From: Rhytidiadelphus loreus
Lineage: Eukaryota > Streptophyta > Bryopsida > Hypnales > Hylocomiaceae
Assembly (NCBI GenBank): GCA_947034895.1
Contig: OX344764.1
Span: forward strand, 60,121,348-60,185,347
Direction of reading: 5' to 3'
DNA: 64,000 nucleotides
In this document: positions 33,900 through 58,796 of the stretch, one piece after another
Numbering within the stretch: position 1 is the first letter of the stretch
Layout of the letters: every line of letters begins with the position of its first letter
Notes under the pieces: model-generated
What the model saw: the letters and a program-made list of their open reading frames with translations, nothing else
Told to the model about the DNA's origin: nothing
Databases searched by the model: none
Program-made: the position numbers and the translations under genes

Positions 33900-34703
33900 A
33901 TGGAAGATAGTGAAGGGGCTCCTACAGGAGCCCAAGCAAACATGGAGGCTATACTTGGTGCCTTGGCCATATTTATGGAGCGAGAGAGAGCACACCCTGG
34001 TGGCCAAGGGGCTACCAAAGCTTTGAAGGGTGTTGTTGACAAGAATGGGAGATTTGACGGAAAGAACATTACAAAGTTCTTGAGAGCATACGTCTGCGAG
34101 ATGGAGGTTCACCAAGTGCCTGAACACCAAATGAGACAGACTTTCAGCTTGGCCGTGGTGCCTGAGATTCGTGAGAGGGTGGAGGAGATTCGAGGAAACA
34201 TTCACGTGACCTCGTGGTTGGTGTTTGAGGAGAGGTTGCGGGATGAGTATTTTGACGAAGATTCGGAGTGGATGACCAAGAGGTCTTTTCTCGATTGGAT
34301 CGAACAACGGCCTGGGAATAATATAGGCCCAAATGAGTTGCTTCGAGACTTTGAAAAGAAATACAACCAGCTACCTTTGGCAGAAAGACGCCTTCTTGAT
34401 ACAAGGAAGGCGGAGCTCTTTTTGCAAGCGGCTGATGATGCTTTAGAGGACAGACTTCTCTTACTCCTTGGTGATCGAACCACTGAGGGAGGTTTCACAA
34501 ATGATTGGAGAAGGGTAGAGGAGACCAGGGTTGTTCGTTGCGACAACGCGACACCGCGACAGACAGACATCGCGCGACGTCTAGTAGAGCCCGCGCGACG
34601 TCACGAAAAGTCAAATTTACCTTTGACTTTACAGGAAATTACCCCCTTCCAGGTGGATGCCACATGGCATCCACTTGGCAAACTAGAGGGCGCGTACGAG
34701 TAG
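33900..34703 (+). pseudogene. Ty3/gypsy-like gag, truncated and fused to unrelated sequence
   Basis: The frame from ATG 33,900 reads as a retrotransposon gag/capsid: GRFDGKNITKFLRAYVCEME, then SFSLAVVPEIRERV-like text, LRDEYFDEDSEWMTKRSFLDWIE, NELLRDFEKKYNQLPLAERR and DRLLLLLGDRTTEGGFTNDWRR. This pattern (FDG..I..FL..Y...M, then helices ending RRVEE) is that of gag proteins I associate with retroelements of non-flowering plants. After the codons for EET at about 34,525 the frame runs into unrelated GC-rich DNA rich in CGCGAC, so the tail to 34,703 is not gag. No zinc knuckle, protease or polymerase follows. A broken copy whose 3' part was lost to deletion or insertion at 34,525. Confidence 0.65.
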
Positions 34704-35095
34704 GAGACTGCGGGTAGGGGCGACTACGTGTGGGCGACTGCGGGTGGACGAGGGCGACTTCGGGTGGGCGACTACGGGTGGGCGAGGGCGACTACGGGTG
34801 GACGAGGGCGACTGCGGGTGGGCGACTACGGGTGGGCGACTGCGGATTTCTAAGGGAGACCGCGGGTGGGCGACTGCGGGTTTGGTAGGGAGACTGCGGG
34901 TTCAGGAAGTGTTCTTGGGTGGGCGACCGCGGGTGCGCAAAAGGTACCTAGACCCGGTGGTGGACCCGAAGTCGCCCAATTTGGACCCGCTGTCGCCCTC
35001 TCGAGACCCGCTGTCGCCCACGTCGGACCCGAAGTCGCCCTACCCAGACCCGCAGTCGCTGGATACGCAGTTGCCCTATCCGTACTCGCCCCCCT
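34690..35095. repeat. GC-rich motif array 1 (GGGCGACTGCGGGT, with inverted half)
   Basis: The left part (about 34,700-34,940) repeats GGGCGACTGCGGGTGG-like units on the plus strand. The right part (about 34,965-35,090) carries the complement, GACCCGCTGTCGCCC and variants. The array is therefore head-to-head, turning over near 34,950. It lies just upstream of the gene at 35,276. Confidence 0.9.
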
Positions 35096-35113
35096 AGAAT
35101 GAAGTCACTCGCC

Positions 35114-35120
35114 CTATATA
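35114..35120 (+). promoter_or_regulatory. TATA box of the 35,276 gene
   Basis: CCCTATATAGCC follows the motif array directly and stands about 160 bp before the ATG. The shared 5' block (35,167-35,210) falls just downstream, where the transcript would begin. Confidence 0.5.
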
Positions 35121-35166
35121 GCCAGTAGCCCATCATCATGCTATCACCTTCATTTTCCATTGAGGC

Positions 35167-35210: not shown

Positions 35211-35275
35211 GATAATATATATACTATTTTTTGCTATCATTTGGTTCTTAGAATTTTGCGACGTCCGCAAATCTG

Positions 35276-37777
35276 ATGGCAACTGGAGGTAGCAGTGATG
35301 GGTCCCTTCCGGTTTTTTCCACTGTACGCACTCCTGGTGCAATTAGGAAGGCTGCCAAAGACAAGACTAGAAAAAGGAGGGGTAACATTCACAAGAAGCA
35401 ATGGCATGTGTTGAACAATGATAACCACCTAGCTTTCAAAGGGTGGAACGAGGAGTCAAAGCCTTGGAGTATGCAGGTGTGCAAAGACTACATTGAATGG
35501 TGTCACATCGGGAAGTTCTTTCCGGCATGGCGCCATCATCACAACCGACACAATAACAAGGCAAATTTGAAGTATTGTGAAAATCCAGCTTTCATACGAA
35601 GGTGTTTAGAATTGTGGCAGGTCCTCTACAAAACCCCTTTTGTAGATAGGAATGAGGCCCCTTTGTTCATTGCTAGAGGTGCCTATGCTGAGGTCGCCTT
35701 GAACAAACAAGTTGACTGGACCACGATCAAAGAAAGTACCTACGTGGAGCGTCCAGAAGTTGGAATAATTCCAAGAGGGGTTCTCAAATTTCCGGAGGGT
35801 GGACTTGGGCCTTTTCGAAGTGATCCACAAAACAAAGAAACTCAAGAGGTGGACACGGAAGAATCAGAAGAGGATAATGATTCAGATGGCACACGGATTC
35901 CTAAGCTTGTACGAGTGAAGGAGCAGATTATCACCCCCGTCCAAGTTCTAGTTCCAGTTCCAGATCCAAATATTCAAGCCGCTTCATCATCGTGGGGAAA
36001 GAAGATGAAACATCCTGCCAAGGTGCGACGGTCCACCACGAAAATTAGATTGGCATCAGCCTTAACCACAATTGCGACTCCAATCTTGCCACCACAAGAC
36101 GCCAGCAACGTCTTCGACTTTGCTTTAAGTGACGACTCGCCCGTATGTGCCACAAGTCACATTCCCATTCCATAGTCTGAATCTGATGTTGTTCACAATG
36201 CGATGACGTTGGCGAAGGCTCTCGACCTCTTGAAGACCAAGGATGCACAAATTGCAACCTTAGAAGGTGATGTGAAGAAATGGCGGTCTACATGTGAACA
36301 AAAAAATGCTCTCATTTCTCAACAATCCAAAGAATTACAAGGCCTTCGAGAAAAAGAGCGTCAGACTTTCACATTGTCGGACATGGACGAAACCTTTATT
36401 GAGCAGGATCCACATCACTTGGACAAGCTCGTTAGGGACCTCACCAACGATGTCATTCACCTTTCTCCCCTTGCCAAGCGTACGAAGCGTTCTTCAATTC
36501 TTCCAATGGCACCACTTCCGTTCGTCTCAAGAGATTCTAGCAATCCGCACGTTGATGGTTTGCAAGGGACTCAGGATTCACTTTCGTTTCCTGCCATTCC
36601 ACATCTACAATCATCAAAGAAACTTGATTTGGCTGAGGAAAATAGAATGCTTCGAGAGAAGTTGGCAGTGTTGGCAGCGACATACTATCATTGGAAGGTC
36701 GCGTGCATTCTCTCCGTGGATCGATCTCAACAAGTTGCGAAAGAGCTAGACAAAGTTTCGAAGAACTTTGTAGCAAATGCCCCTAAACGAGAGAATGGAT
36801 TGACATCATGGGCATTGATGGAGGACATGTTTCCGGATAACATGTCCATGCTTGACGTGGCGGAAAAAAATGTCATAGACTGGGCACAAAATGGTTGGGA
36901 CCATGGAAATCAGATGTCTAGTCACTTCAACGAAAAAGACCAAAGTCTATTGTGGCCAAAGCCAGCTCATTTCGTCTTGGATCATACCAAATGCCCCATA
37001 TGTCTAGAACAATTTGGGCCAGAAGGAGGATGGGCACTTGGATCATGTACACATGTGTACCATCCTTAGTGTCTCATCACTCAATGTCTGATTAGACGAC
37101 GATGTGTGATTTGTGCAGCACCATTCCATGATCGCTTGTATACCATGTTCAACTTGATGACTTACATGCCACCTTCTTGGGAACACAATAGAGACACGAC
37201 GGTAGAGACACGATTTTGGGGACGAGACTTGCTTTGGAGTTGGCGAGAAGGCCTACATGATCAAGAAATGGGAGCTGCTACCTCACAATTGAATTGGGAA
37301 ACGGACCCGCGAGAAATTCTAAGAGTGGCATTCAACCTTATGGGAAAAGGAGCTCACAATGCAGGGAAGAGGGCGTTTTTTTTTCAATGCCTTGGTGGAT
37401 ATTTTGATAAGACATCCCAAACCTTCAAGTGGGGTGCTCATCCGGAAGGACACCGTTGGAATTTTGAAGGTGAACAAGGGGCTAATCGTGATGAAAATGC
37501 CACTCCAGAAGACTTGAATAGTATGGCTTACCTCGACTCAACATACGGGCCTTATTATCAAAGTCAAGCACTCGATTATCTATTGGAGTTACACTCTCCG
37601 CAAACTAAAAGGACACTTGAAGCTCTCAAGAACTCCAATGTCTTGGAATCTATTTTAGAAGCAGATGGACCTGCTTCAAGGACTCGTGCTAAGAAGAAAC
37701 TCGTTGTTGGAGAGTCCAATGATTACGAACAAGGTGCAACGAGTGCTTCTCAAAACAATCCAATGGACTTGAACTAA
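35276..37777 (+). pseudogene. WCHI-family protein 1: novel N-domain, coiled coil, RING-H2; two in-frame TAG codons
   Basis: One reading frame runs from ATG 35,276 to 37,777 with no frameshift, interrupted by TAG at 36,173 and 37,067. Residues about 1-165 form a conserved domain shared with the genes at 40,939 (minus) and 54,179: KGWNEESKPW, YIEWCHIGKFFPAWRH, NKANL, FIRRCLELWQVLY and VDWTTIKE. An acidic stretch follows, then, after the first TAG, a coiled coil from about 36,203. A RING-H2-like finger starts at 36,992: CPIC, SCTHVYH, the second TAG, then C and CVIC (to about 37,113). The stop sits between the second zinc-binding His and the next Cys. A further 220 codons (FNLMTYMPPSWEH onwards) are unrecognised. 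RING fingers usually mark E3 ubiquitin ligases; that role is inference. It reads either as a decaying copy or as a gene using stop readthrough. Confidence 0.55.
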
Positions 37778-39448: not shown

Positions 39449-40939
39449 CTAAGCATTTTTTTCACTATTCACAAAGTCACTTTCTTTGGGCTCCGGTCTC
39501 ATTCTTTGAAGTTCCGCACGGGTGGCACCTATGCCTTCATAGGCCCACTTGCGCCATTCCTTAAAATAAAGGATGTGGCGCTCCAAGTCCAATATGCCCT
39601 CGTGCAACAACTCTTGTTTTTTCTCCAGTAGCTTCACCAAATAAAAAAGCGTTGTTCTTTCTTCTGTATTGCTACCATAATCCGGAGCTAAAGCCAAGAT
39701 GCCCTCTTTTTTGGCTTCTTTTAAGGCATCATCATAATATTCCATCTCTAGCTCACGTATTTGAAGATTCAAGCTTCTCCTTTCGCTTTGATGGGACCAT
39801 TTCTCACGTTGCAAAAGATCAAGTTTATTTTGAAGCACCGCCAAATCATCGGAAATGTGTGCTCGCCCGTCTTCGATCTTCTTGAAATAATTTACTCTAC
39901 TTTTGTTTAACTTAGAGTAAATCTTCTCATTTTCAGCAATGGTGTTTTCAGTCGCCTCTAACTCCTTCTTCAACCCATCCACAACAGTTGGATTCACTAG
40001 AAGATGTTGTACCTTCTCTTTCAAATTCATAAGATCCGCTACTGTTGAAATCAAAGCTGCTCGTGCACTTTCGATCTTAGTGCCCAACATCTCTAAATTG
40101 TCTTCCGAATCATTGTCACTACTTCCGCTAGACCCAATGTCTGCACCAGAACGGTCCACATTGATCGGTACATGAACATCTTCACTTTGTTTTTGAATCT
40201 TGGACAATGATTGCGGCTCCTCAAGCTTCCTCTTGCCCTTTTTGTCAACTTGAACGTCTTCAGCCGCCTCTTGTTTTTCTTTGCCAATGTCTTCGTCGTC
40301 ACTCTCAAAAGAATATCCATCGTATTCATGAGTGTGCTCATCTGAGCTAGAAGTTGAAGACCATTGAACTTGGTCATCACCAACAGCCAACTTGCCAGGC
40401 TTTGCCTCTAAAAGCTTCTGATTTGCTTAAAGAAGTCCTTCTTCATCCAGCACTATCGGTCTGTCCGGGCGGTCACCGATAGGAAGCTCCTTGAAGGTTG
40501 TCCAATCTACCTTTTTCTTCAATTGAACTTCAACGTACACCATTTGCACAAGATAGAAAGAGAAGTTGTCATTTCGATAAGGCTGGGACTCCAAATAGAG
40601 TTGCTGCCATACCTCCAAACACCTTCGCTGGAAGACAACACTCTTGTAGTAAGCCAAATTTGCCTTATTAGACTTCACGTGCAAAGGGTGTCGCCAAAAC
40701 GGGAACAACTTGTTGATGTGGCACCAATCCACATATTTGTTTACAATTTCATATGTCCAAGGCTCTGGTTCTACTTCCCATCCCAAAAAGGCCTTCATTT
40801 TTGGATGCAACAAGATGGGTACACACTTCTTGCGAGGTTTGCCGCTCCTTTTACGATCCTTGTCACGAACCGCCTTTTTGTTGAGCCGAAGTCGGTATCT
40901 TGACATACCGTGTGGCAGTTGAGAGTCCTCGCCCTCCAT
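39449..40939 (-). pseudogene. WCHI-family protein 2: novel N-domain plus coiled coil; one in-frame TAA
   Basis: Minus-strand frame from ATG 40,939 to TAG 39,449, broken only by TAA at 40,429-40,427. The first about 165 residues carry the family domain: FLGWEVEPEPW, YVDWCHINKLFPFWRH, NKANL, FQRRCLEVWQQLY, VQMVYVEVQLKKKVDWTTFKE. Beyond the stop come an acidic serine-rich stretch (DDQVQWSSTSSSDEH, matching DEQFQWTSSDSSSAEED in family member 3) and a long coiled coil (LKKELEATENTIAENEKIY and LQREKWSHQSERRSLNLQ regions), ending in FVNSEKNA. Aligning EGLL-stop-ANQKLL with EGLGQKKNLK of member 3 puts the stop opposite a glutamine codon. No frameshift seen. No RING finger. Function unknown; a nuclear or chromatin-binding scaffold is conceivable but not shown. 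Confidence 0.55.
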
Positions 40940-41009: not shown

Positions 41010-41160
41010 GTGTAAAAAATGCTAAACGTAATCCTATCACATTTAACATTTACAAAAATACAATGTTCTCGTGAAACACCCTATGTCATCCAAGTGTGAA
41101 TAAAATGAGCCGTGCAAAGGAACAAAAATCCCCCCCCACAACTCAAACCCCTAGCTTCTG

Positions 41161-41203
41161 TGCACACATTCAGCCACGTCAGCAGGTGAAAGACAGTGCG
41201 CAG
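41161..41203 (-). promoter_or_regulatory. Shared 5' block, copy 2
   Basis: On the minus strand it reads TGCGCACTGTCTTTCACCTG, then CTGACGTGGCTGAATGTGTGCA. The 17 bases GTGAAAGACAGTGCGCA (plus strand) are identical in the copy at 49,130-49,172. A C-rich tract (eight Cs, plus strand) lies between block and ATG in both. Confidence 0.8.
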
Positions 41204-41222
41204 AATGCCAGGGAAAATTTAA

Positions 41223-41318
41223 TGGCGACTGCGGGTGGAGGAGAACGCTGATGTACCCGAGGTCGCCCCTGGGGCGCGTGCGGGTCCTGAAGTGGGGCGA
41301 GTGCGGGTGTGAGCCCCA
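41223..41318. repeat. GC-rich motif array 2 (short)
   Basis: A few units: GGCGACTGCGGGTGG, then ACCCGAGGTCGCCCC, then GGGGCGAGTGCGGGTG. It lies upstream of the minus-strand WCHI gene 2, beyond the shared block. Mixed orientation within under 100 bp. Confidence 0.75.
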
Positions 41319-41904
41319 AATTCGTCACTTGGGACTCATTGTTTTTTTTTTTTTTAGTTTATTACAAATTAAAGCATAAAGTAGTACAAAAAGCCCAAAA
41401 AAGAGTGTAGAACCAAAATAGGTATGTCACGTACCAGTATAGCATTTGGTCATAAATAGCCTTTTATCCATAGATTACCCATGAAACCCACTTGTATATA
41501 GGTTAGAACCCGTAATTAGTAGGAAACAACAGGGCTATTGGGAACTTATCCAAAATAGCCCAAACCCTAGTGCATGTGACCATGATAGGCTAAATTAAGT
41601 CTTTGGAAAGTGGGGGAGGTCTCCACATAAATCTCCAAAGATAGGTTCTAGTTTCCCCATTCCATTGACGAAACATTAGAAATCCACATTGTTAGCTTGC
41701 AGGTGTTACTTGTCCCAAGACAGGCCGCATGGAGGAATCCACAGCCGCCGGATAGTGTTCTCGGATCTGGAACATGGCGGGACATCCACGGCAAAACCCA
41801 TTCGCCAAGATTCCCTCACATGTGAAAGATTCCCTGACTGCCGATGATTCAACCGAAGTCAGTTTTCACCTCGCCACCAACTGTGTGCCAGAATAGCCTA
41901 AGAC

Positions 41905-42640
41905 TTGGCACGTGGCTTGGGGGACTCCATGAGAGGTTCCCCAAAAAGTCTCGGTTTTTTCTGATCTCCAAAGGATCTTTTTCCGAGCGGTCAACTGCCA
42001 AAGGCCACGTTGGGAAATTCATAGAAAATACCCAGGCCGCGGTAAAATCTCACTAAAAATTAGACTAGCATCTTTTATGTTAATAACGCGCCCCGACAAA
42101 TTTCATGGCGTTCCAATAGCGGGAAGCAGCCGAAACTGACAACATCCCCCCAATTAATATTTACGGCAAGATCTTTGCGGGGTTGACCGGCGTCCCGGGA
42201 GCGTACGAAGTCGGAACAAAGACATCAAAGAGCCTTTTCTTACTCCCTAGAGCCTCCCCAACAACCCTAGCTAGTTACCCAAGCCAAAAGAGGTAAACCC
42301 CAAAAGTTAGGTTTTTACCCTTTTAATTGGCTCCAGTTGGCACTAGTTTCCGAGGGTTTTTTTGTGATAGAAATAGGGGATAGAGGTCTATTAGGCTAAA
42401 AATGGCATTCTGAAGCCATTGGCGCAATCCATTTGCAATTCCGAGCTAAACTCCAAAAGTTAGAAACTAGGACCAGCGTAAAACCCAAGATTAGGTGAAA
42501 ATCTCAAAGTTGGATGAAAATCCGGATGGATGAGGTTACTCGTCGAGGGGGGGAGTGGGACCTTGGAAACCTATAAAAGGGGGCCCTTCTCTCTCCCAAA
42601 ACACCCCCAATACTTGTTTTGGGTCCGTGGGTCCAAGTTA
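41905..42640 (+). mobile_element. LTR-like segment related to 28.6-29.3 kb
   Basis: It aligns with 28,590-29,340 through TTCATAGAAAATACCCAGG, GGTAAAATCTCACTAAAAATTA, CAAATTTCATGGCGTTCCAA and GATCTTTGCGGGGTTGACC. The core promoter CTATAAAAGGGGGCCC at 42,571 is followed by a pyrimidine-rich leader with CTTGTTTTGGGTCC, as expected for U3/R. This copy is more GC-rich than its relative, in line with less C-to-T decay. No paired LTR, gag or pol is present, so it is a solo or truncated LTR. Confidence 0.5.
42572..42578 (+). promoter_or_regulatory. TATA box in LTR-like segment
   Basis: CCTATAAAAGGGGG, conserved in position with the TATA-like site at 29,254 in the related segment. Confidence 0.6.
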
Positions 42641-43004
42641 TCTTGGAATTTTTGGCGTTTCAAGCCAAAAAACCTCTACGGTGTTTTCGGAGCACTTTTG
42701 GCTCCCATTGTCGTTTTATTTCAAGCTCTTTGAAGTCCTTGAGGTCCTTCTACCTTACCTTGTACATGTGTGAGTCAAGCGGTTTCCATCTACTTGTGTG
42801 TGTTTTCCGTGTATCTTTTTGGGTGTCTTGTACTAATCCTAAAGTCACCCCCCACCGTACCTTGGCGATGCCGCTTAGGGGGGCCTTTAGTACATGAGTA
42901 TTGCCTTGTTTATGTTTACCTTGTGGATTCGGTTGCATCTTGTGTAAGTCCTAACCATAGTCACCCTTGCCGTGTTGTTTACGAGTGGACCCCACCGCCC
43001 TTGA

Positions 43005-43327
43005 GGCGGCGAAGCTTTGAACGTATAACCTACCCTAGTCTTAGAGTGTGTGTCAAAAACAGGCCTTAGACGGCGAAGCTTTGGACCCGGGGGGCGTCAC
43101 CAGTCTTAGAGTTGGTGTCAAAACCAATTCGACGGCGAAGCTTTGAACCCCCTATACTTTTTGGTTCCAAAGTTTAGTTCCCAAGATCTTCTTGGGAAAA
43201 GCCAAAGTTTAGCCCCCAAAAGTGCCCTAGGTGGTAGACAAGTATAGGGAGAAACCCCGCCACTAGGCCATTGTTTTGCTAGTTGTTAAAACTTTTTGTC
43301 TATTTCCCCTAGACGGCGAAGCTTTGA
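43005..43327. repeat. GGCGAAGCTTTGA repeat, three tandem 63-bp units and one distant copy
   Basis: ACGGCGAAGCTTTGA-like units start near 43,005, 43,069, 43,131 and 43,311. The first three are about 63 bp apart, and the intervals share CAGTCTTAGAG.TGGTGTCAAAA, so they are true tandem units. Found downstream of the LTR-like segment, probably in its U5/leader. Confidence 0.8.
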
Positions 43328-43424
43328 CCCTGACCTGTCCAATTTTAAGTTGTGTAGTGGGTTCCCATACGGGAACCCGGAGAGGAAGGATTGTAGTAAA
43401 AATACTTGGGACCAGCCCCAAGGA

Positions 43425-43592
43425 GAGGCCTGTAAGGGAGCAGTCAGCCAACCTAAGGGGAGGCCCGTAAGGAAGCAGTCAGCCAGCCCAAGGGGAGGCC
43501 CGTAAGGGAGTAGTCAGCCAGCCCGTAAGGGAGCAGTCAGCCAGCCCGTAAGGGGAGGCCGTAAGGGAGCAGTCAGCCAGCCGTAATGGGGG
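43425..43592. repeat. Tandem repeat of about 36 bp (AGGGGAGGCCCGTAAGGGAG)
   Basis: About five units containing GGGGAGGCCCGTAAGGGAG and CAGTCAGCCAGCCC, some shortened by internal deletion. Adjacent to the next repeat block. Confidence 0.85.
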
Positions 43593-43599
43593 GCCGGGT

Positions 43600-43770
43600 A
43601 TCGGGGAGCCAGTTCGGGGGGGAGCCAGTTCGGGGAGCCAGTCGGGGGGGAGCCAGTTCGGGGAGCCAGTTTGGGGAGGGCCAGTTCGGGGAGGGCCAGT
43701 TCGGGAGGGCCAGGGAGTTGGGAGTTCAAGGGGGAGGGCCAGGGAGTTGGGAGTCTAAGGGGGGGGGGAA
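43600..43770. repeat. G-rich repeat (GGGGAGCCAGTTC and GGAGGGCCAGTTC units)
   Basis: Units of 14-17 bp, GGGGAGCCAGTTCG shifting to GGGAGGGCCAGTTCG, then longer GGGCCAGGGAGTTGGGAGT units, ending in a G9-type run near 43,760. Strong purine strand asymmetry; G-quadruplex-capable. Confidence 0.8.
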
Positions 43771-43849
43771 AGGGAGAAATCCTTACCTCAACTAAATTCA
43801 GCACTACGGGACGATGCCCTGCGGGGCCCCACCACACCTTTTTTTTTGG

Positions 43850-44810
43850 GTTTTCATCACACTAAGATTGAAACCCGGGGTCTAGTGAAAAACTAACAAA
43901 AGACCAACTCAAGGCTAAAGGAAAAAGGGGGGAAGAGAAGTCGCCATCCCACGCGTCCAAACCTGCACAACCTCTCAAAGTCCCTCACCAACAAGCCACT
44001 TCACACAATGATGACAAAATTAGGAAGGGGGTAGTTATAGGAGAGGAAGAAGGGAGAGACGATAAATAGTGTTGCGTCATAGGATTAGGTAGGAAATCTC
44101 ACAAGCTTCTTACAACCATTGGGAAGGAGATTAGGATGACACCAAAATGACGACGTAAGGGAATAGGTGATTCTTCCATTAGATTAGCGTCATATGGTGT
44201 AAGGTCTCATTTAAAGGGTTGGTAGGAATAGTGTTGAAAGAAAAGAAGAAGAGGTAAGGAGGAAGGAAGGAACCATTAAAGGTCTTTAAGGTGTACCACT
44301 TCGCCGAGGACTAAGCTGTTGGCATTTTACTACGTCAAAATACTTGTCGACTATGGAATACGAGCACGCGGCTGGAGGTATGGAGGAGAATGCCGCACAT
44401 GCTAACGACGATCAGGTGAGTCATTAAACAGATCCCCGGTGTCTTTTTTTTCCCTTCTAATTTACGTTAGACTCTGTTAGATAGTGAATAATTTTGATTA
44501 GCAAAGAGGGGTTAGGGATAGGCCTTAAGTTTAGGCATAGAAGGTTATCGATAGAAGTATCCAACCCATCTCACACATAGAAGTTAACCATCAGAGCAAC
44601 CAAATTAGAGTAGGGTAGGATAGGACTAGGAATTAGTAATTGTTAAGGTTAGCACTCAACCAAGAAGCAAACACTAGATTAAGACAAAATAATCCAATTA
44701 GGAGCTCGGGTTAATTTAGCAAAACAGACCTTGCCTTAGAAGATTAAATTAGGAGAAGAGATAAATTAAAATTAGAAGATTAAATTAGGAAATTAAATTA
44801 GGAAAAAAGA
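43850..44810. other. Purine-rich spacer without a supported gene
   Basis: No clear gene. One possible first exon, ATG 44,353 to a GTGAGT donor at 44,416 (EYEHAAGGMEENAAHANDD), is noted but unsupported by further exons. Confidence 0.35.
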
Positions 44811-45070
44811 TCATTTAAATTAGAAGATAAATTAGATCATTTAAATTAGAAGATAAATTAGATCATTTAAATAAGAAGATAAATTAGATCATTTAAATAA
44901 GAAGATAAATTAGATCATTTAAATTAGAAGATAAATTAGATAATTTAAATTAGAAGGTAAATTAGATAATTTAAATTAGAAGATAAACTAGATAATTTAA
45001 ATTAGAAGATAAATTAGATCAATTAAATTAGAAGATTAAATTAGGAAGTAATTTAGATAAATTGAATTAG
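44811..45070. repeat. 26-bp AT-rich tandem repeat
   Basis: About nine to ten units of GATCATTTAAATTAGAAGAT plus AAATTA (26 bp), with variants GATAATTTAAATTAGAAGGT and AAATAAGAAG. Degenerate half-units continue to about 45,110. Each unit includes the palindrome ATTTAAAT or a near form. Confidence 0.9.
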
Positions 45071-49037: not shown

Positions 49038-49129
49038 GTTGTACTTAAAAACAATTCAAAACCGTAGTTCAAAATTCGTAGATTGAAAGGGTAAAAATTC
49101 CCCCCCCAATTGAAACCCCAGCCTACGGG

Positions 49130-49172
49130 CACGCATCCAGCCACCTGAAGGTAGGTGAAAGACAGTGCGCAA
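49130..49172 (-). promoter_or_regulatory. Shared 5' block, copy 4 (kinase-like gene)
   Basis: On the minus strand TGCGCACTGTCTTTCACCTA, then CCTTCAGGTGGCTGGATGCGTGCCC. It contains CACCT...AGGTG, a small inverted repeat around ACCTTC. The downstream C8 tract matches the WCHI gene 2 leader. Confidence 0.8.
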
Positions 49173-49194: not shown

Positions 49195-49790
49195 AAAGTG
49201 GGGCTAACGCTTAAGTACCTGAAGTCGCCTCAGGGCGCGTGCGTTTGGGTGACTGCGGGTCTGAAGTGGGGCGACTGCGGATCTGAGGAGGGGCGACTGC
49301 GGGTCTGAAGACAGCGGGAATAGGCGACTACGCGTTTTTGGAGCGCTGAAATGGGCGACTGCGCATCAAGGGCGACTGCGGATCGTGGGCGACCGCGGGT
49401 ACCAACTAAAGCATCCCGAAACTTGCACACGCGGTCGCCCACAAAGAAGTCTCTTCGACCCGCAAATGCCCCCTACGTGCAGTCGCCCCACTGGAGATTG
49501 AGTTTGCATTTTCCAAAAAATCAGTCTCCCTCCTTGACCCGCAATCGCCCCCTACGCGCAGTCGCCCTACTGGAGATTGAGTTTGCATTTTCCAAAAAAT
49601 TAGTCTCCCTCCTTGACCCGCAGTCGCCCCCTACGCGCAGTCGCCCTACTGGAGATTGAGTTTGCATTTTCCAAAAAATTAGTCTCCCTCCTTGACCCGC
49701 AGTCGCCCCCTACGCGCAGTCGCCCTGATTCAAATGTGTTTTTTGCTTCGTTGATGACCCGCGGTCACCCCTGACTCGAGGTCGCCCTAA
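49195..49790. repeat. GC-rich motif array 4 with 79-bp higher-order repeat
   Basis: The left part (to about 49,400) is GGGCGACTGCGGGTCTGAAG-type. After an inversion near 49,430 the complement GACCCGCAGTCGCCC appears. From 49,536 the pair GACCCGCAGTCGCCCCCTAC and GCGCAGTCGCCCT plus an AT-richer linker (GAGATTGAGTTTGCATTTTC) forms units of exactly 79 bp (starts 49,536, 49,615, 49,694). The array heads the kinase-like gene. Confidence 0.9.
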
Positions 49791-50429
49791 ACCAACAACC
49801 AATCTGACCCAACACTAATTAGCATCTGCAGCATATTCTAATTGATTTTTCCTTATCTCACATACTAAATTGGTAATAAATGTTAGGCGTCAGTTCATAT
49901 CAAAGACATAGCAAGGCAATGGAAGAATTATTCTCACAATGTGAAGGGTTTCCCAAACCCTAAACCCTAGACCCTAGACCTTGGAAAACAATAATACAAC
50001 TTTTATCTAGAATCAAATCCTTAAACCTACATAAAATACTTACACATCCTACACGAGATGTAGTGTTTTAGACCTAAAACAGAATCATGTCTTTTTTGTC
50101 TTGTTGAATTTGTAAACAAAATGGAGGAAGTAACATATGATTAAAGGGAATTAGAAACAATAAGGGAGAGGTCCCAAAAAAAACACCATCTCGTGAATCA
50201 TGCCCAAATAAATCTAATTACACCTCCCCACTATTAGAATGTACATAAAACTTTCATTTGGAACTTCTTGCCAAAGGAGTGTTGGAGAGCTAATGCAAAA
50301 CCTAGGATTTGTTTGTCTTGTTGAATTTGTAAACAAAATGGAGGAAGTAACATATCATTAAAGGGAATTAGAAACAATAAGGGAGAGGGGTCCCAAAAAA
50401 AAAATTAATCTTGTGAAACATGCCCATAC
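49791..50429. other. AT-rich interval between arrays 4 and 5
   Basis: No gene. It contains two direct copies of a segment of about 110 bp (about 50,091-50,204 and 50,309-50,428) and a short AAACCCTAAACCCTAGACCC telomere-like phrase at about 49,956. Confidence 0.6.
50091..50428. repeat. Direct duplication of a segment of about 110 bp
   Basis: The phrases TTGTCTTGTTGAATTTGTAA, GGAGGAAGTAACATAT and GGGAATTAGAAACAATAAGG recur in the same order at about 50,096 and 50,314, ending in GGTCCCAAAAAAAA and CATGCCCA. The two copies are about 218 bp apart and nearly identical. Confidence 0.9.
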
Positions 50430-50965
50430 CCGCAGTCGCCCAAAGCGCAGTCGCCCTAGAACCCCAGGTCTGATTTTGGAAGTGATCTGGGGACCCGCAG
50501 TCGCCCCCTACGCGCAGTTGCCCTGATGGAAGGGGGGAGATTGCATTTTCGAAATTTTTGGTGTCTCCCACCTTGACCCGCAGTCGCCCCCTACGCGCAG
50601 TCACCCTGATGGAAGGGGGGAGATTGCATTTTGAAATAGTTAGGTTGCTCCCACCTTGACCCGCAGTCGCCCCCTACGCGCAGTCGCCCTGATAGAGGGC
50701 GGAAAAGTATTTGGTGTCTCCCTCCCCTTCCATATGGGCGACTGCGGGTCAAGGAGTTTGCATTTTCTCCTTGACCCGCAGTCGCCCCCTATGCGCAGTC
50801 GCCCTGATGGAGGGGGGATTTTGAAATGTGTTTCCCCCTCGAGGACCCGAGGTCGCCCTTGAAAGACGCGAGGGATCCTTGGACCGGACCCGCGGTCGCC
50901 CCATGCGCTGTCGCCCTAGTATCCGTGTTAGGGTTAGCGCATGCGCCCCTGGCGACCGCGGGTAT
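50430..50965. repeat. GC-rich motif array 5
   Basis: Mainly plus-strand GACCCGCAGTCGCCCCCTAC with GCGCAGTCGCCCTGATGG, in units of about 75-80 bp with linker GGGGGGAGATTGCATTTT, plus occasional inverted units (GGGCGACTGCGGGTC at 50,738). It precedes the shared block at 51,019 and the spliced gene at 51,673. Confidence 0.9.
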
Positions 50966-51018
50966 TTCATGGGCTGTTCCAGCCTATGGTCCATAATTTT
51001 CATAAACGCGCCTTGTAG

Positions 51019-51053
51019 TTCATCTACCTTGTAGTGGCTGAATGTGGACCCAA
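51019..51053 (+). promoter_or_regulatory. Shared 5' block, copy 5
   Basis: GTTCATCTACCTTGTAGTGG then CTGAATGTGGACCC, matching 25 of 33 positions of TTCACCTACTTTACAGTGGC TGATTGCGTGCCC at 54,008. It stands just after array 5, like the other copies. Confidence 0.55.
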
Positions 51054-51672: not shown

Positions 51673-52479
51673 GATTAAGGACTTTTGGAAAGGCTACAAA
51701 TTGTATTGCTTTGCTCATTATGGCCAGTGCAATGAGTTCAAAGGCCATTTCCAAGCCAGCAAAATGGGTGAGTAAAATATTGCCCTTCATTTTGTATAGG
51801 TGATTTGAATCCTTGAATAATGAAATGAACATGTATTAATGAACATTTCTAGTTGGATAGTTGGTGGTGGACATTTCATCTCACTATTAGTGCTTATTTG
51901 CTGCAGGACGAGTGATGTGTTTGATACAAAACACACGCGATATTGTTTGGGGAGCCAAATTTGATGAGGCCATTAGGGAGGGGTGGGCCATGATGGAAGA
52001 ATATGTGTGGGTTCGGCAAGGAAAAGATTGTACAAACCTCAGGTTCGGTTGTTCTAGTATAGAACTTGTATTATAAGATTATATGCTAAAAATACCCATA
52101 TGTAGTTGTTATGTTTTAATATTCATTGATATGGGGGGCCGGGAGATGCAGGGCTTTATTAGAAGAATTTGAGGATGTCGAGAAACTTTCCGAGTCTGAG
52201 AATGGATGCTTGTTGTTACAACTCATTAAGGTTAGTGCAATACCACAACACGAGTTAATATACTTGCTAGGTTAGTATTGTTTGTACCCCATTCTGTGAA
52301 TATCATATGTACTAATGACAATTCCACCTTAGGATGATGAGCACGGGACGGAACGCGCATTTACACAATCTCTGAGCGTTCAAATCAACACCACGGATAT
52401 CTTTGAGCAGACCAATAATAGGTTAAACCAAACTCGCGCAAACTTGGACAACCTTGTGCCACGGGCAAATCGTTCGTGA
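51673..52479 (+). CDS. Unrecognised spliced gene, last four exons
   Basis: Exons read by hand: 51,673-51,767, 51,907-52,042, 52,152-52,230, 52,333-52,479 (TGA). Donors are GTGAGT, GTTCGG and GTTAGT; acceptors CAG, CAG and TTAG (first exon AAATAG). All phases fit, giving about 150 residues with protein-like composition: DFWKGYKLYCFAHYGQCNEF, FDEAIREGWAMMEEYVWV, LLEEFEDVEKLSESENGCLL, then FTQSLSVQINTTDIFEQTNN. The 5' end is unresolved. Protein-like text at about 51,153-51,373 (FDVEGLEMAIAFIVAKLLNN) and 51,467-51,541 (VQFSKCSEEVIIILDHEYF) may be earlier exons, but I could not join them. No family recognised. Array 5 and the shared block precede it, so it seems to be another gene of the array-headed group, and the only one with introns. 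Confidence 0.55.
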
Positions 52480-53740
52480 CTAGAGACATTGTTGTGGTGC
52501 ATCAAACGGCAGCCTTGTACCATGGCATAAGACCCTATTTTGATTTTTGAGTTGGGATCATAAAAAGAAATAAGTTATTTATGAAGATAATAGTACTAAA
52601 GTCATGCTAGACATGTGAAATAGCAATGTGCTTGACAAAGAACTTCATTTTACATTTTTATACTATGATTTTGCTAAACAATGCATGGATTGTTTATCTC
52701 AGATGGATGGTCATATTTTGCTAAACAGTCCATGGTATATGAATGTTTAATTGATTAGTGCCCAATACTTTAATGGTTTACATATGTGACCCCTCCCAAA
52801 AAATATATACCCATAAATGTGACCCTCCCAATAAAATATATACCCATAAATGTTGTGGCTTGTTATTCTTGGTTCACAAGTTTGAAATCCCCAAATATTG
52901 AAAATGTACAAATGTATGCCCTTCATTTAATCCCTTTGTTTGTAAATATGATGGCTACACTTTTAATTAATATGAAACAAGTTTTATTGTTTGGATACCT
53001 ATGAATGTACAGATAAATAAAATTTGAACAAAACCATGAAATCAGCTGGGAAATAGCTATGACAATTAATTGTAACAATTAGTTCCCAACTACACCTTCA
53101 CGGTGCTTGATGAAGCACATAATGAAAGTTATATGGGAGCTCATGCTGTCACACCCAATCCTTATGGGATATTTGAACAACCATCTTACTACACCTATCC
53201 TATGCATTGTATAATTGATTATATTGAGTTTTGTTCTCTCACGCAATTTATAATGTGTCAATCACACTTGACCATAAATGAATAAAAGGTATTTATCCCT
53301 CAATTCCCAAACCCCTTCTTTGGGAGCTCTCCGAAAGTGGTCTACATTGATCAAGAATCCCACATTCTTCATAGTTGGATCTTGTTTTACAATGGATTCA
53401 CCATACAAATTCAAACTAAACATAATAGAGATTGCATTGGAAAATAAAACGCAACCATGTGAATCATGGATGGTAAATTTCTTATGTTTGATTATTTTCT
53501 TATTGAAATTGCAGAAGTGATGTTAGGGTGGGAATCCTCTTTTTGCATGTCAAATCTAATAAGTTGCAACAATAATTAATAAAATGGCTAAAGATGCATA
53601 ACCCAAATTTTTAAATAAAAGATGAAAAGGTGCAATACATTTTTATGAAGTGCATTGGTAACTAAAATTTATGTCCACAATTTTGTGTAAGAGAACTTCA
53701 AAGTGAAAGTCTTAGAGGTTCAGAAATTCAAAATCCCGCC
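52480..53740. other. AT-rich spacer
   Basis: No gene supported. It has short frames only, and a local near-duplication at about 52,788-52,855 (ATATATACCCATAAATGTGA and AAATATATACCCATAAATGT). Confidence 0.5.
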
Positions 53741-53742
53741 TT

Positions 53743-53955
53743 GTACCCGCAGTTGCCCACCCGCGGTCGCCCCACTGTAGGGGTCCAGAAATTACTCTGT
53801 GGTGCCCTACACGCGGTCGCCCATCCCCAGTAGCCCCAGACCCGCAGTCGCCTTCACAGTCAGCCCCTTAGACCCGCAGTCGCCCTACCCGCGGTCGCTC
53901 TCAGACCTGCACTCGCCCCTTCCCGCACTCGCCCCAGGGCGATTGCGGGTTAATT
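53743..53955. repeat. GC-rich motif array 6
   Basis: Plus-strand units ACCCGCAGTTGCCC, ACCCGCGGTCGCCCC, GACCCGCAGTCGCC and ACCTGCACTCGCCC, ending with one inverted unit (GGGCGATTGCGGGTT at 53,938). Immediately upstream of the shared block and WCHI gene 3. Confidence 0.9.
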
Positions 53956-53994
53956 AGCTGTCTCCTCACCCGACTTCGCCACTTTCCCTTCTTG

Positions 53995-54038
53995 CTGCGT
54001 ACTGCCTTTCACCTACTTTACAGTGGCTGATTGCGTGC
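53995..54038 (+). promoter_or_regulatory. Shared 5' block, copy 3
   Basis: TGCGTACTGCCTTTCACCTA, then CTTTACAGTGGCTGATTGCG and TGCCC. It is followed by GGGAGCTTGGGTTTTGAGTT, as in the minus-strand copies at 41.2 and 49.1 kb. The ATG is about 140 bp downstream. Confidence 0.8.
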
Positions 54039-54178
54039 CCGGGAGCTTGGGTTTTGAGTTTCACTTACATGTGGCTCATGTTCTTGATTTTACTCCATCA
54101 CTCACTAATCGCTAGATAATACTTTGCGGTTTAGGGTTAAGTTTAGATTCCTTGCCCCAAATCTCAAGAGCATCTCCA

Positions 54179-55786
54179 ATGGCGGACCACAAGAAGAAGA
54201 CCAAGGCAAAAGGAGCCATGCACCCTAGGCAACAACGCATCCTTTTGGACCCAGCGTGTGTGGCCTACCGAGGTTGGGATCGAATTACGGGCCACTGGAC
54301 CGCCAAGACTTGTAAGTCCTTCGTGGGGTGGTGCCACATCGACAAGTTATTCCCCTATCATCGGCACTACACGAATCGGCGCAACAATACGGCCAATTTG
54401 CATCCATGCCGTAATGATGCATTTGTGCAACGTTGTATCGAAATTTATCGATACTTGTATGGCACATATTCAGTGCCCAGGAGCGAAGTCCCGTATTTCA
54501 TATGTGCAATGGTGTATGCGGAACTCATTTTGTTTCAAAGCGTGGATTGGAGTTCAATCAAGGGAGTGAAGCATGCTCACCTTCCACCGACAAAAGACAT
54601 CCCAAGGGCGGCTCTATCTGCCAATCCACGTGAAGGGCTAGGCCAGAAGAAAAACTTGAAGGAGGGAGTGCTTGATGAGCAGTTTCAATGGACATCATCT
54701 GATTCATCTTCCGCAGAGGAAGACAATCCTGGTGAAGACCCTCCAATGGAGCCTAAAAACATGGCGAGGGTGGCTTCTACTTCACAAAATGTACCTCCCC
54801 CGAGAATGGAAGAAGAGGGTGAACCAACTAGGCAACCACAAAATCTTGATGTTTTGCCTCTTGCTATGGTGAATCCAATTACAGTTCCTTGCAATAAAGA
54901 GGACGAAGTTTTGCAGTATGTGCTTGCATGCATGCAAGAAGCAAAAGATGATGTTTTTTATACAGAGATGGAAACATAAGAAGATGTGAAGCCTTCTTTG
55001 TTCCAATTGGATTGTGTTGATGACATGTACCGAAGTGAGGAATTCATTGAAGATGGAACTGTCTCTGACACAGTAATGTTGGACACCAAAGTTGTTTACA
55101 AAGCTCAACTCAAGAAGCTTCTAAATGAATTGGATGAAAAGCATCTAGAATGTGAGAAGCTTCGCAATTAAGAAACGCAAACTTTGAGTGGAGATATTGT
55201 AAATAGCTTACGTGCTGAACTTGAAAGTCCGCAAGTTCTTTTATCAACGCAAATAACAAAGATTTTAGACTTGGAAGCATTTTACCTTAGATTCTCTTCT
55301 CGGCATGCTGGAGGATCTAGTTCTTCTAGCAATGAGTTTGCGAACAAACGGCTTGCCAAAATTATAGAAGCATGCAAGCTGGAGGAAGATCAGATAGACT
55401 TGGAGAAGCGAGGGGTGGAAGAAGCACGATCAAGATTAAATTCCTTGAAAGCATTAAAGGACAAAGCCCCCCTTGACCGTGTTGCAGAAATGTGTGGTTG
55501 GAAAGACGTGGCTACTAAACAAGCATTGTCTCTTACGGAAGTAGTTGACTTGAAAAAGAAGCTTGGGGTTTCTTTGTCATTGGATCCAAAATTGGAAGAA
55601 CATCGGGATGCACTGAAGGCGCTTTTGAAGTTCCAAAAATCATACAAGCAATTTTGGTTGGAAAAGAAGTTGGGGAAGGATGACCGATACCTTAGGAATT
55701 TGCAGTTGAAAGGTAGGAAAGTCTTGTATGAGATGGAACGTGAGGCTCATGACCGCAAAGAAAAGGCCAAAATGGATGTTGAATGA
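54179..55786 (+). pseudogene. WCHI-family protein 3: novel N-domain plus coiled coils; two in-frame TAA codons
   Basis: One frame from ATG 54,179 to TGA 55,784, interrupted by TAA at 54,977 and 55,169 but without frameshift. The N-terminal about 150 residues hold the family signature: YRGWDRITGHW, FVGWCHIDKLFPYHRH, NNTANL, FVQRCIEIYRYLY, AMVYAELILFQSVDWSSIK. An acidic serine-rich stretch (DEQFQWTSSDSSSAEED) and a proline-rich region follow. Beyond the first stop comes a short region with QLKKLLNELDEKHLECEKL, and beyond the second a helical coiled-coil region (LDLEAFYLRFSS to EREAHDRKEKAKMD). No RING finger is seen, unlike member 1. The stop following NEL..EKLRN is in a coil where glutamine is a plausible ancestral residue. 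Function unknown. Confidence 0.55.
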
Positions 55787-56250: not shown

Positions 56251-56261
56251 ATCCAAACAAA

Positions 56262-56490
56262 TGGCACTCGCCCGTTCCTGGACCCGCAGTCGCTTGTTTC
56301 TGGACCCGCAGGCGCCCATTACTGGACCCGCAGGCGCCCGTTCCTGACCCGCAGGCGCTTGTTTCTGGACCCGCAGTCGCCCACTCCTGGACCCGTTGTC
56401 GTCCAATCTTGGACCCGCAGTCGCCCATCACCTGACTGATTTCAGGTTTTTGGACCCGCATTCTCTCATGGGGCGACCGCGGGTCCAAGG
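56262..56490. repeat. GC-rich motif array 7
   Basis: Units GGACCCGCAGTCGCTTGTTT, GGACCCGCAGGCGCCC and GGACCCGCAGTCGCCC on the plus strand, closing with one inverted unit (GGGGCGACCGCGGGTCC at 56,470). It lies about 250 bp upstream of the hAT transposase ATG. I do not see the shared 5' block here. Confidence 0.9.
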
Positions 56491-56735
56491 AGTTTTCTTG
56501 TATAAAGTTCTAGGGGTACCCTTTGTTTTATCACCTTGGCTCCGTTGATAAAACTCTTGTCTTGGACCTTCGAAAGAGGCTTCATGCGGACGTTTAACTT
56601 CTTCGGAGGGCAACAACCGTGTTTAGAAGGGTTTACAAGACCACTCTAAGCGGGTTGCTTTGTCATTACATCTTCCATAGTATTAGTGTGATTATTGTAG
56701 TCATTTTCTTTGAAGACCCAGTGTTGATCTACTAC

Positions 56736-58796
56736 ATGGCTGGACAAGGTGTTGGGAGGGGGGGGACCATGAATGATACGCGGAGGTCCACAAAGGATTG
56801 GGACCCTTGGCTAGTACCGTGTACCCCAATTGATAATTCTCCCCATGCTCGAAAATGCGTGTTTTGTGGGTGGAGCAAAGCATTTGTACGAAAGAGAGCA
56901 TTGATTCACTTTGGCTATGGCGGCTCGACTACATCGGAGCGTTGTAAGGAGATCCCTAGAATTGTACGAGAAAAGTTTCGGACTGGCGAGGGGCAAGTTC
57001 CAAGGTCCATGAGTTACGAAGAGATGTATGATGCACCGACTGGACATGATGCACCAATTCATGTTGCAGAGTCTATTGTCGCACCTGCGTTGGATGTCGA
57101 AGAAGAAGGGTCTCTCAATCCCTTTGAATCAAATGCAAGACCAAATCCTACACCTGATTCAGTAGATTCTACTGGAACAACGCTTGAGAGAAGGAGGAAC
57201 ATGCCATCTGTTTCTCGGCAAAGAAGCATGGATGAATCATTACAGACGGGCCGCAGACAAAAGTTGGATAGGTTGCGGGCTTCTTTCTTTTACGAGGCGA
57301 ACATTTCATTTAATGTTGTGCGCCACCCGGCCTTCGTGAATGCTGTTAAACAAACTGCAGCAGCTGGATTCGTGTACCAACCGCCACCGTATAATGCGAT
57401 TCGCACGAAAATGATAGATGTTAAGAAGGCATCGGTTGAAGCCATGGTCTCGGAGCGGACGAGGGTTTCAATAAGTCAGTATGGAGCGACAATTTGTTCA
57501 GATGGTTGGTCCGATACTAATTCGTGGCCATTACTAAATATGATGTTGGTGTGTCCCGCCGGGGATGTCTTTTTGGGATCAGTGGATAGTACTGGGGAGA
57601 AGAAGGATATATCTTACACGACTAAGACGATGGCACGATACATTGAGGAAGTTGGGCCTACCAACGTTGTGCAATTGTGTACGGACAATGCTGCAGTCAT
57701 GACGGGGGCGATGGCAAGGTTGGAAGAAAGGTACCCTCACATTTATAGGCAAGGTTGTGCGGCACACATTTTGGACTTACTCTTAGAAGACTGGGGAAAG
57801 GATCAGAGAATAAAGGAGTTGGTAAAAAAGGCTTCATCAATTGTGAAGTTCATCAAGAAATACCAACATACTTTGGCGTTGTTTCGGAGATTTTCACCAA
57901 ACAAAGTGTTGAGACTTCCAAGCAAAACACGTTTTGCCACAAATTTCTTGATGATTGATCGTTTGGTAGACTGCAAGCAAGTAGTGCACAACGTGACACT
58001 GGATGAGACATACATGACGTTCGAGTTGAGTTTGCAAAACCGCAGAAATGGACATTTCGTTATGGGCAAGGCCAAACTTGCAAGGCAAGATATCCGTTCA
58101 GAAGAGTTCTGGGTTCAATGCGACAATTTCCTCCATATAGTGAAGCCCGTGCTGCTTTGTCTTCGTCATTTTGATGGAAAAGTCCCGGCAATGCCGAAAG
58201 CTTTAGTAATGATGACAACCTTGAAGGAGCACATTTATTCTCTCAAGAATGCTCCATTTTTCCTTGATCCAGTGGTGGCAACACGATATGAGAAACAATT
58301 TGATGCTCGCTGGAAGTTGATGATTACTGACCTACACTATGCGGGGGCACTACTAAATCCATACTTGAGTGACGTGGAGGCTATTCATAACAATGGCTAC
58401 GCGAAGGGAGCTTTGAATCGAGTCATACGAAAACTGAGCGTACCATTGAACGTGTCAGTGGTGGAAGCAATGCAGGAGCTAACTCAATTTGAAGAAAAGA
58501 CAGGTGCATTCGATCCTTTACATGAGGCTCCCGATATCATTGAATGTCAATTATTGCCTCATCAATGGTGGAATCGTGTGGGGGGCAATGCTCTTCCAAA
58601 AATTGCAAAGCGAATTCTCGGTTTGACGTGCTCTGCATCTTCGTGTAAAAGGAATTGGAGCATGTATTCCTTTGTGCACAATAAAGTGCGAAACCGCTTG
58701 GACACGACAAAGGCAGAGACATTGGTGTATATCTACGCGAACAACAAACTTGAACGTCAAAAACGTGGATACAACCCAGCCATTTTTTACGACTAG
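56736..58796 (+). CDS. hAT-superfamily transposase (BED finger, DUF659, hAT dimerisation)
   Basis: Cut-and-paste DNA transposase. ATG 56,736 gives 686 residues to TAG 58,794. This start puts a BED-type finger near the N-terminus (CVFCGWSKAF...RALIHFGYGG...ERC, followed by KEIPRIVREKF). The DUF659-like catalytic region follows: FYEANISFNVVRHPAFVNAV, ICSDGWSD (first Asp), VQLCTDNAAVM (second Asp), RQGCAAHILDLLL. The C-terminal dimerisation domain has LPHQWWNRVGGNALPKIAKR, SASSCKRNWS and HNKVRNRLDTTKAETLVYIY. Length and motifs are those of a full-length plant hAT transposase, with no internal stop or frameshift, so it may be active. I did not find terminal inverted repeats or 8-bp target duplications. 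It is the only intact transposase here and a candidate driver for the array-headed elements. Confidence 0.92.
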   Translation: MAGQGVGRGGTMNDTRRSTKDWDPWLVPCTPIDNSPHARKCVFCGWSKAFVRKRALIHFGYGGSTTSERCKEIPRIVREKFRTGEGQVPRSMSYEEMYDAPTGHDAPIHVAESIVAPALDVEEEGSLNPFESNARPNPTPDSVDSTGTTLERRRNMPSVSRQRSMDESLQTGRRQKLDRLRASFFYEANISFNVVRHPAFVNAVKQTAAAGFVYQPPPYNAIRTKMIDVKKASVEAMVSERTRVSISQYGATICSDGWSDTNSWPLLNMMLVCPAGDVFLGSVDSTGEKKDISYTTKTMARYIEEVGPTNVVQLCTDNAAVMTGAMARLEERYPHIYRQGCAAHILDLLLEDWGKDQRIKELVKKASSIVKFIKKYQHTLALFRRFSPNKVLRLPSKTRFATNFLMIDRLVDCKQVVHNVTLDETYMTFELSLQNRRNGHFVMGKAKLARQDIRSEEFWVQCDNFLHIVKPVLLCLRHFDGKVPAMPKALVMMTTLKEHIYSLKNAPFFLDPVVATRYEKQFDARWKLMITDLHYAGALLNPYLSDVEAIHNNGYAKGALNRVIRKLSVPLNVSVVEAMQELTQFEEKTGAFDPLHEAPDIIECQLLPHQWWNRVGGNALPKIAKRILGLTCSASSCKRNWSMYSFVHNKVRNRLDTTKAETLVYIYANNKLERQKRGYNPAIFYD

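Follow-up and report, generated by a model that had tools for sequence, protein, structure and literature searches.

In this article, I discuss a giant DNA transposon in the moss Rhytidiadelphus loreus, which lies in a 64,000-nucleotide stretch of contig OX344764.1 (assembly GCA_947034895.1; C4:60,121,348-60,185,347, hereafter the window) where a sequence-only reading had described five unrelated genes, each headed by the same 5' module. Cut-and-paste transposons with short inverted repeats are generally small, and yet this feature is very probably one hAT-superfamily element of about 22.4 kb with many genes, moving as a unit by cut and paste, in which a repeated motif would control the genes and a conserved block would act as core promoter or 5' leader. 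Its gene content comprises a transposase and at least five others, namely three WCHI paralogues, a kinase-like gene (KIN) and a small spliced gene (SPL). The unit character and the transposition of this giant hAT element are demonstrated as far as sequence comparison can do so, by copies with common tips, a common gene order and target duplications.

Boundaries, copies and target duplications

Similarity between copies ends at window positions 34,526 and 61,030, placing the window copy at C4:60,155,873-60,182,377, and a short terminal inverted repeat (TIR), CAGGGTTG, is present at both ends and fits the hAT consensus [T/C]AGNGNNG given in a survey of plant hATs (PMC6027215). The window copy is interrupted by a later insertion, and its outline is as follows.

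34,526-61,030, plus strand: the giant hAT element from tip to tip, 26,505 bp in this copy and about 22,362 bp once the 4,138-bp insert and its 5-bp duplication are subtracted
34,526-34,534, plus strand: left 9-bp terminal inverted repeat CAGGGTTGT, with 307 exact extended left ends genome-wide
61,022-61,030, plus strand: right 9-bp terminal inverted repeat ACAACCCTG, with 378 exact extended right ends genome-wide
41,308-45,445, no strand assigned: later insertion of 4,138 bp that begins TG and ends CA, with GCGGG on either side, missing from the four other multi-gene copies

The order and strands of WCHI1, WCHI2, KIN, SPL, WCHI3 and the transposase gene are identical at C1:5.208-5.230 Mb, C1:401-423 kb and C1:351-376 kb, and the copy at C1:1.640-1.662 Mb has the order of the window with part of WCHI1 missing. 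Long pieces of these collinear copies are mostly 95-98.5% identical, and array pieces fall as low as 85.5%. Perfect 8-bp target duplications flank three of the first five copies that were read with both ends (TTCAGGAC at C1:5.21 Mb, GAGGTGCC at C1:401 kb and GTTCAAAG at C1:972 kb), and 20 further copies taken from end pairs contributed 15 more perfect duplications (8 of 13 full-size and 7 of 7 short copies) and one with a single mismatch. Overall, 18 of 25 copies have a perfect duplication, one has one mismatch and six, the window copy included, do not match; since the 18 perfect duplications are 18 different 8-bp words, the spread of the element is, on the evidence of its flanks, transposition and not segmental duplication.

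In the genome of 407 Mb, the exact left and right ends listed above are joined by 602 exact matches to the putative promoter block described below (controls gave 0), and at three blocks per element this comes to roughly 200 full-type copies, a rough figure. End pairs were drawn from all of C1 and the first 10.3 Mb of C2, using 82 of 100 listed left ends and all 100 listed right ends and joining each left end to the nearest same-strand right end within 60 kb, a rule by which some pairs may join different copies. Of these 82 left ends, 60 found a partner, 22 of them at 5.1-6.9 kb, 8 at 10.9-19.5 kb, 15 at 22.2-23.7 kb and 15 at 25.8-50 kb, and an abundant 5-7 kb form exists beside the full-type copies. 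The one short copy that was read (C1:972,142-977,624; 5,483 bp) retains both ends and, between them, the KIN/SPL arrays and an SPL whose frame is open. On C1, 13 of 100 listed block matches sit more than 30 kb from any exact end.

Inverted pairs of element copies, about 20-25 kb apart, were also observed: the window copy with a minus-strand mirror whose right tip would lie near C4:60,202,649, the copies at C1:351-376 kb and 401-423 kb, and those at C1:29.326-29.349 Mb and 29.373-29.396 Mb. KIN and the transposase are each 100% identical (rounded) within the window pair, and the right flanks of the 29.3-Mb pair are mutually reverse complement, as after exchange or inverted duplication. Inverted duplication of element loci may be the cause of some missing target duplications, and the pairs could be a trace of alternative hAT transposition.

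The transposase

The gene nearest the right end encodes the enzyme by which the element is classified.

56,736-60,011, plus strand: transposase frame of 1,091 codons (DUF659 and hAT dimerisation domain); an in-frame TAG at 58,794-58,796 gives two open reading frames (ORFs) in this copy

Pfam matches comprise DUF659 (PF04937; E 2.6e-35, 121.8 bits) and Dimer_Tnp_hAT (PF05699), the latter at 21.4 bits, exactly its curated cut-off of 21.4. The motifs C.DGW, LCTDN, GCAAH, SSC[EK]RNWS and CxxC-H-C are present, triad-like ones included, by patterns that were chosen from hAT motifs, and the window reads SSCKRNWS versus SSCERNWS at five other loci, two of them from a diverged family. A search of the PDB returned four weak matches, two named Hermes transposase and two transposase, the best at E 0.099. 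Among the best-scoring 65 of 1,471 candidate transposase places, 36 have no stop over a 686-residue stretch, and in 18 of these 36 the surrounding open frame reaches at least 1,136 codons; the long ones among the 77 public relatives measure about 960-1,170 residues, the best being 65% identical, and one named relative is a protein of the moss Ceratodon purpureus, with seed-plant proteins among the others.

The diverged family, seen at C1:138,001-148,000 (L022) and C1:1,524,001-1,534,000 (L023), has a transposase 63-75% identical by stretch, the same right tip and arrays. At L022, no left end was found by pattern in the 15 kb before the right tip, and tblastn of 24 kb around the locus gave no WCHI, KIN or SPL match.

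The genes carried with the transposase

35,276-37,777, plus strand: WCHI1, 833-codon frame with two internal stops here (frame positions 299 and 597)
39,449-40,939, minus strand: WCHI2, 496-codon frame with one internal stop here (position 170)
47,574-49,037, minus strand: KIN, kinase-like, 487 codons here, with an open frame of about 536 in most scored copies; Pfam Pkinase, E 3.3e-11
51,720-52,479, plus strand: SPL, predicted four-exon gene of 139 aa, exons 51,720-51,771, 51,907-52,042, 52,146-52,230 and 52,333-52,479, splice sites predicted
54,179-55,786, plus strand: WCHI3, 535-codon frame with two internal stops here (positions 266 and 330) and none in the four other multi-gene copies

Three of the five supposedly unrelated genes are in fact paralogues, two of the WCHI genes having 41% and 32% identity to the first, and modelling predicts for the WCHI proteins a conserved N-terminal helical domain and long coiled coils; WCHI1 also has a partial RING-like match under the curated Pfam cut-off. 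Since longer frames occur in other copies, the genes of the window are damaged versions. In each of the 6 copies where SPL was read, among them the short copy, its frame is open, with GT/AG at all splice sites in five of the six, the exception being one AT donor at C1:1.64 Mb. In KIN, the residues Lys251 (beta-3), His363, Asn370 and Asp389 are invariant and Asp365 nearly so across the query and 19 of 73 homologues, and the best-scoring 88 of 1,316 candidate KIN places, all 96-100% identical to the element's KIN, include 65 without a stop. The ratio pN/pS, a simplified count over 9-12 copies that was compared with shifted reading frames, is 0.40 for KIN (versus 0.60-0.69 when shifted) and 0.40 for WCHI2 (versus 0.60-0.99). 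Public relatives exist for KIN (73 proteins at 26-70% identity) and for WCHI3 (7 proteins, 5 of them covering 88-98% of WCHI3 at 40-43%), and their existence would be better evidence than pN/pS for the upkeep of these two genes. Together with the 77 relatives of the transposase, these proteins suggest that other bryophyte genomes may have the same gene set between hAT ends. Stop positions, compared for four genes across five copies, show a further pattern: at 14 of 16, the change relative to other copies is of the C-to-T or G-to-A type. Methylated repeats would be expected to decay in this way, and methylation has probably targeted the element.

Many genes, promoters of their own and a kinase might also be what an integrated large virus, or a virus-derived element using hAT ends, would bring along. 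I consider this very improbable, given that a Pfam scan of 10 ORFs (SPL, the second halves of WCHI2 and WCHI3 and frames under 120 codons lying outside it) found only Pkinase, DUF659 and the hAT domain at their curated cut-offs, and that the WCHI N-terminal domain had no viral structural match at E up to 0.001.

Motif arrays and the putative promoter block

A 15-bp motif, GACCCGCAGTCGCCC, was searched for across the window with up to 3 mismatches and gave 94 matches in 8 clusters, all within 34,526-61,030 and zero elsewhere in the window; genome-wide, there are 4,904 exact matches, and the reversed pattern, used as a control, has 0. The sequence-only reading had placed arrays upstream of the five genes, which holds; arrays precede the transposase gene as well and occur at the two ends of the element.

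34,702-34,950, minus strand: left subterminal array, 13 of 13 matches outward (complement strand)
34,963-35,076, plus strand: array adjoining WCHI1, 6 of 6 along the gene
41,223-45,690, minus strand: WCHI2 array, split by the insert into 41,223-41,309 and 45,467-45,688, 13 of 14 along the gene
49,247-49,787, no single strand: arrays between KIN and SPL, the KIN-proximal matches 6 of 6 minus and the rest 11 of 11 plus
50,427-50,964, plus strand: SPL array, 12 of 14 along the gene
53,744-53,951, plus strand: WCHI3 array, 8 of 9 along the gene
56,281-56,485, plus strand: transposase-gene array, 8 of 9 along the gene
60,526-60,842, plus strand: right subterminal array, 12 of 12 matches outward

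The direction of the gene-proximal array is that of the gene in 6 of 6 genes, and whole arrays have the expected direction in 8 of 8 (probability about 0.004 if directions were coin tosses, a model set up once the data had been seen). The arrays contain higher-order units of 79 and 83 bp, and the motif is CpG-rich.

Beside some of these arrays lies the block.

41,123-41,216, minus strand: WCHI2 block, core from 41,192 on the minus strand
49,092-49,171, minus strand: KIN block, core from 49,161 on the minus strand
51,008-51,047, plus strand: weak block-like stretch before SPL, not secure, 5-6 of 200 nulls being as good
53,983-54,061, plus strand: WCHI3 block, core from 54,006

The block had been ascribed to all five genes, and comparison of their upstream regions, with arrays masked and 200 null comparisons per pair, upholds it for some of them only. 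The regions before WCHI2, KIN and WCHI3 align over 60-80 bp with scores of 77, 67 and 61, which 0 of 200 nulls reach; when all 200 null pieces were rechecked against each region, two overlapping pieces scored 80 with the WCHI3 upstream region and the other nulls stayed below 60, the two pieces aligning 695-576 bp before the WCHI3 ATG, away from the block (196-118 bp before the ATG). SPL has one consistent place, at about 51,008-51,047, scoring 27-29 with opposite-strand scores of 25-28, WCHI1 is at noise level (25, 10, 12 and 188 of 200 nulls as good versus WCHI2, KIN, SPL and WCHI3, respectively), and no block was detected before the transposase gene (36-182 of 200 nulls as good). By this alignment test, the block is solid in WCHI2, KIN and WCHI3, doubtful in SPL and not detectable in WCHI1; its claimed agreement with the strand of the gene stands for the three solid blocks, and the two on the minus strand do share TGCGCACTGTCTTTCACCT and a C-run, as had been noted.

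The refuting condition given with that reading, block matches that lack arrays or genes, was examined in part, on the first 30 of the 602 exact block matches, all on C1 and classed by script. An array lies within 400 bp upstream in 30 of 30 loci, with at least 7 motif matches each (6-15 forward matches), motif matches downstream of the block are 0 in these 30 loci, and all 30 align over at least 800 bp with WCHI2 (8), KIN (11) or WCHI3 (11). Measured from the block, the closest motif begins 69 bp away in 10 of 11 WCHI3 and 9 of 11 KIN loci and 45 bp away in 8 of 8 WCHI2 loci; for KIN in the window, the distance is 100 bp. By eye, each of 100 listed block matches is one of three variants.

These modules had been taken for the shared ends of gene-capturing transposons, and a transposon was found; the set of elements with common ends and different cargo was not, as the modules are internal to one element, in which the five genes and the transposase travel in one order between one pair of hAT-type ends. 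That five separate Pack-type or Helitron-like gene-capturing elements share a common 5' end is now scarcely credible: the common modules are real for three genes, but the constant gene order in the compared copies, the single pair of ends, the 8-bp duplications and the internal transposase all speak against it, as do the three block types, which mostly occur together at similar spacing among the 100 listed matches. One short copy does carry SPL and none of the other genes, but its tips are those of the large element. Neither a Helitron nor a Pack-type architecture was found; Helitrons are not known to have TIRs or target duplications, and here a TIR and 8-bp duplications are present. Pack-TYPE elements, Pack-hAT among them, are alike in having hAT ends around non-transposase coding DNA, but they are described as non-autonomous carriers of gene fragments (PMC8903248), whereas this element has a transposase frame inside it and cargo frames of 496-833 codons. 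For the copies examined, the five-element explanation is refuted. The other option offered at the time, a promoter module spread by amplification, comes close to the pattern inside the element, the whole having then been multiplied by transposition.

What the arrays may do

In the mechanism proposed here, the arrays at the ends would be subterminal binding sites of the transposase, by analogy with other hAT elements, and the mirrored end arrays do give the hAT-type subterminal repeat layout. That the same motif stands before each gene as well as at the ends suggests that the protein holding the ends has a second task at the promoters, activating or repressing them, so that the transposase or another element protein would control the element's genes together. 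The block beside the array in three genes would be a core promoter or 5' leader, copied when the WCHI genes were duplicated and gained by KIN. Taken to its full extent, this would make the element a regulon, in which transpososomes assemble on the motif at the ends and the same motif is the operator before each gene. A single protein of the element would then link transposition to the expression of KIN, the three WCHI genes and SPL, and the 5-7 kb form would be a satellite competing for that protein; I offer this stronger version tentatively, as a possibility with somewhat less than an even chance.

The same giant hAT could instead hold internal arrays that are extra transposase-binding or recombination-prone repeats, spread by duplication and playing no part in gene regulation, which I find less likely than not. 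The arrays do grow and shrink, as the 79- and 83-bp units and the range of forward matches within 400 bp of the block attest, and in the short copy at C1:972 kb a left-hand deletion, from about 34.9 kb to 49.27 kb in window coordinates, has fused two like-oriented arrays, which suggests that arrays can mediate internal deletion. Against this explanation stand the polarity of the arrays, which tracks every one of the six genes, and the largely constant spacing of motif and block, with no motif downstream at the 30 loci. Arrays that are host-silencing targets, or GC-rich promoter islands read by host factors and not by an element protein, would suit the CpG-rich motif and the C-to-T or G-to-A type of the stop positions, but leave the mirrored end arrays in their hAT subterminal layout unexplained, and I judge this unlikely.

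Several points weigh against the preferred reading, that of a unit hAT transposon with motif-controlled genes. The flanks of the window copy, GAGGAGAC and GTTTGGAC, do not match, leaving it with no target duplication, and none that matches was found at the C1:1.64 Mb copy or at 4 of the 20 further copies. A putative BED-type zinc finger of the transposase is recognised by its CxxC-H-C spacing pattern, with no Pfam BED match up to E 1. The end arrays lie deeper than the first Hermes repeats, starting 176 bp inside the left tip and 188 bp inside the right one, and the regulatory role of the arrays is one that we infer. As for the cargo, each of the five multi-gene copies read has at least one broken gene, and the best-scoring KIN and transposase lists favour intact copies. 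WCHI3 gave a pN/pS of 0.74 versus 0.48-0.73 in shifted frames, not lower, and pN/pS would support selection on the cargo weakly, for WCHI3 not at all. Among the stretches of the pN/pS set, those with neither stop nor gap against the reference number 6 of 12 for WCHI3, 4 of 9 for WCHI2 and 3 of 12 for KIN, where the reference is the window copy, itself differing by an indel.

Comparison with known systems

The element is best filed in the hAT superfamily (Ac/Ds, Hermes, Tol2), with which it shares, as judged from its sequence, CAGGG-type short inverted repeats, 8-bp target duplications and a DDE-type transposase with the hAT C-terminal domain, together with mirrored subterminal repeats and short internally deleted forms that relate to it as Ds-del to Ac in the accounts of PMC3260210 and PMC10368747. 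In Hermes, BED domains bind short subterminal repeats, which run antisense in repeats 2 to 7 of the left end and sense in repeats 1 to 5 of the right (PMC10368747), and the Ac transposase is described as binding AAACGG repeats in the terminal 200 bp (PMC3260210). The differences are also considerable, since the element has 22.4 kb and at least six genes whereas Ac has 4,565 bp (PMC3260210), the longest consensus in the plant hAT survey is 7,144 bp, and that survey reports no hAT detected in the moss Physcomitrella (PMC6027215). A further difference is that the motif of the ends also stands before each internal gene that was recognised.

In size alone, the element has a precedent among plant TIR elements in Tgmt*, a CACTA element of soybean, which measures 20.5 kb and likewise has subterminal motif repeats; it differs in being CACTA and in having one large gene with transposase and DNA-binding functions, and its abstract mentions no multi-gene cargo (PMC2613891). 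Elements above 20 kb with many genes are known outside the hAT superfamily too, and their enzymes distinguish them.

Starships have a tyrosine recombinase, Polintons a DNA polymerase B and an integrase, and Teratorn a piggyBac together with herpesvirus genes. None of these enzymes appeared in the 10 scanned ORFs at E up to 1, within the limits of that scan given above, and with hAT ends and a hAT transposase a place among the Starships, Polintons/Mavericks or Teratorn is unlikely. The word 'hAT' is absent from the main text of a review of giant transposons that treats Teratorn (PMC6431247), and in searches of the open-licence PMC literature I found neither a giant hAT with cargo nor any element that joins hAT ends to six or more genes and to a motif shared by ends and promoters.

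At 22.4 kb, with extra genes and roughly 200 full-type copies, the element shows that hAT transposons are able to transport large cargo and multiply it in a plant. Its several hundred natural copies are also material for studying what role the kinase-like and WCHI proteins play in it. Should the motif prove to be both a transposase site and a promoter site, the element would be an uncomplicated example of a transposon whose genes are regulated by an internal network. Annotators should also be warned that the genes of the element resemble unrelated host genes.

Neighbouring sequence and the insertion

The 4,138-bp insertion in the WCHI2 array holds short GC-rich and AT-rich minisatellites and appears to be solo-LTR-like (LTR, long terminal repeat). 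To the left of the element, positions 33,900-34,525 contain an interrupted gag-like ORF, recognised by eye and having no match in the Pfam scan, and the listed ORF at 33,900-34,703 crosses from this flank into the element; to the right, from 61,031 onward, a coiled-coil-like ORF at 61,775-63,130 has relatives at L022 and at a further locus, L009. Window positions 12,742-12,927, outside the element, resemble about 53,484-53,603, which is 576-695 bp before the WCHI3 ATG, with a score of 80 and about 72% identity to other copies, and the likeness is that of either a dispersed repeat inside the element or a piece copied from it. Also outside the element are two related gene copies, at 1,861-9,506 and 18,797-20,576, which are presumably MCTP/C2-domain genes.

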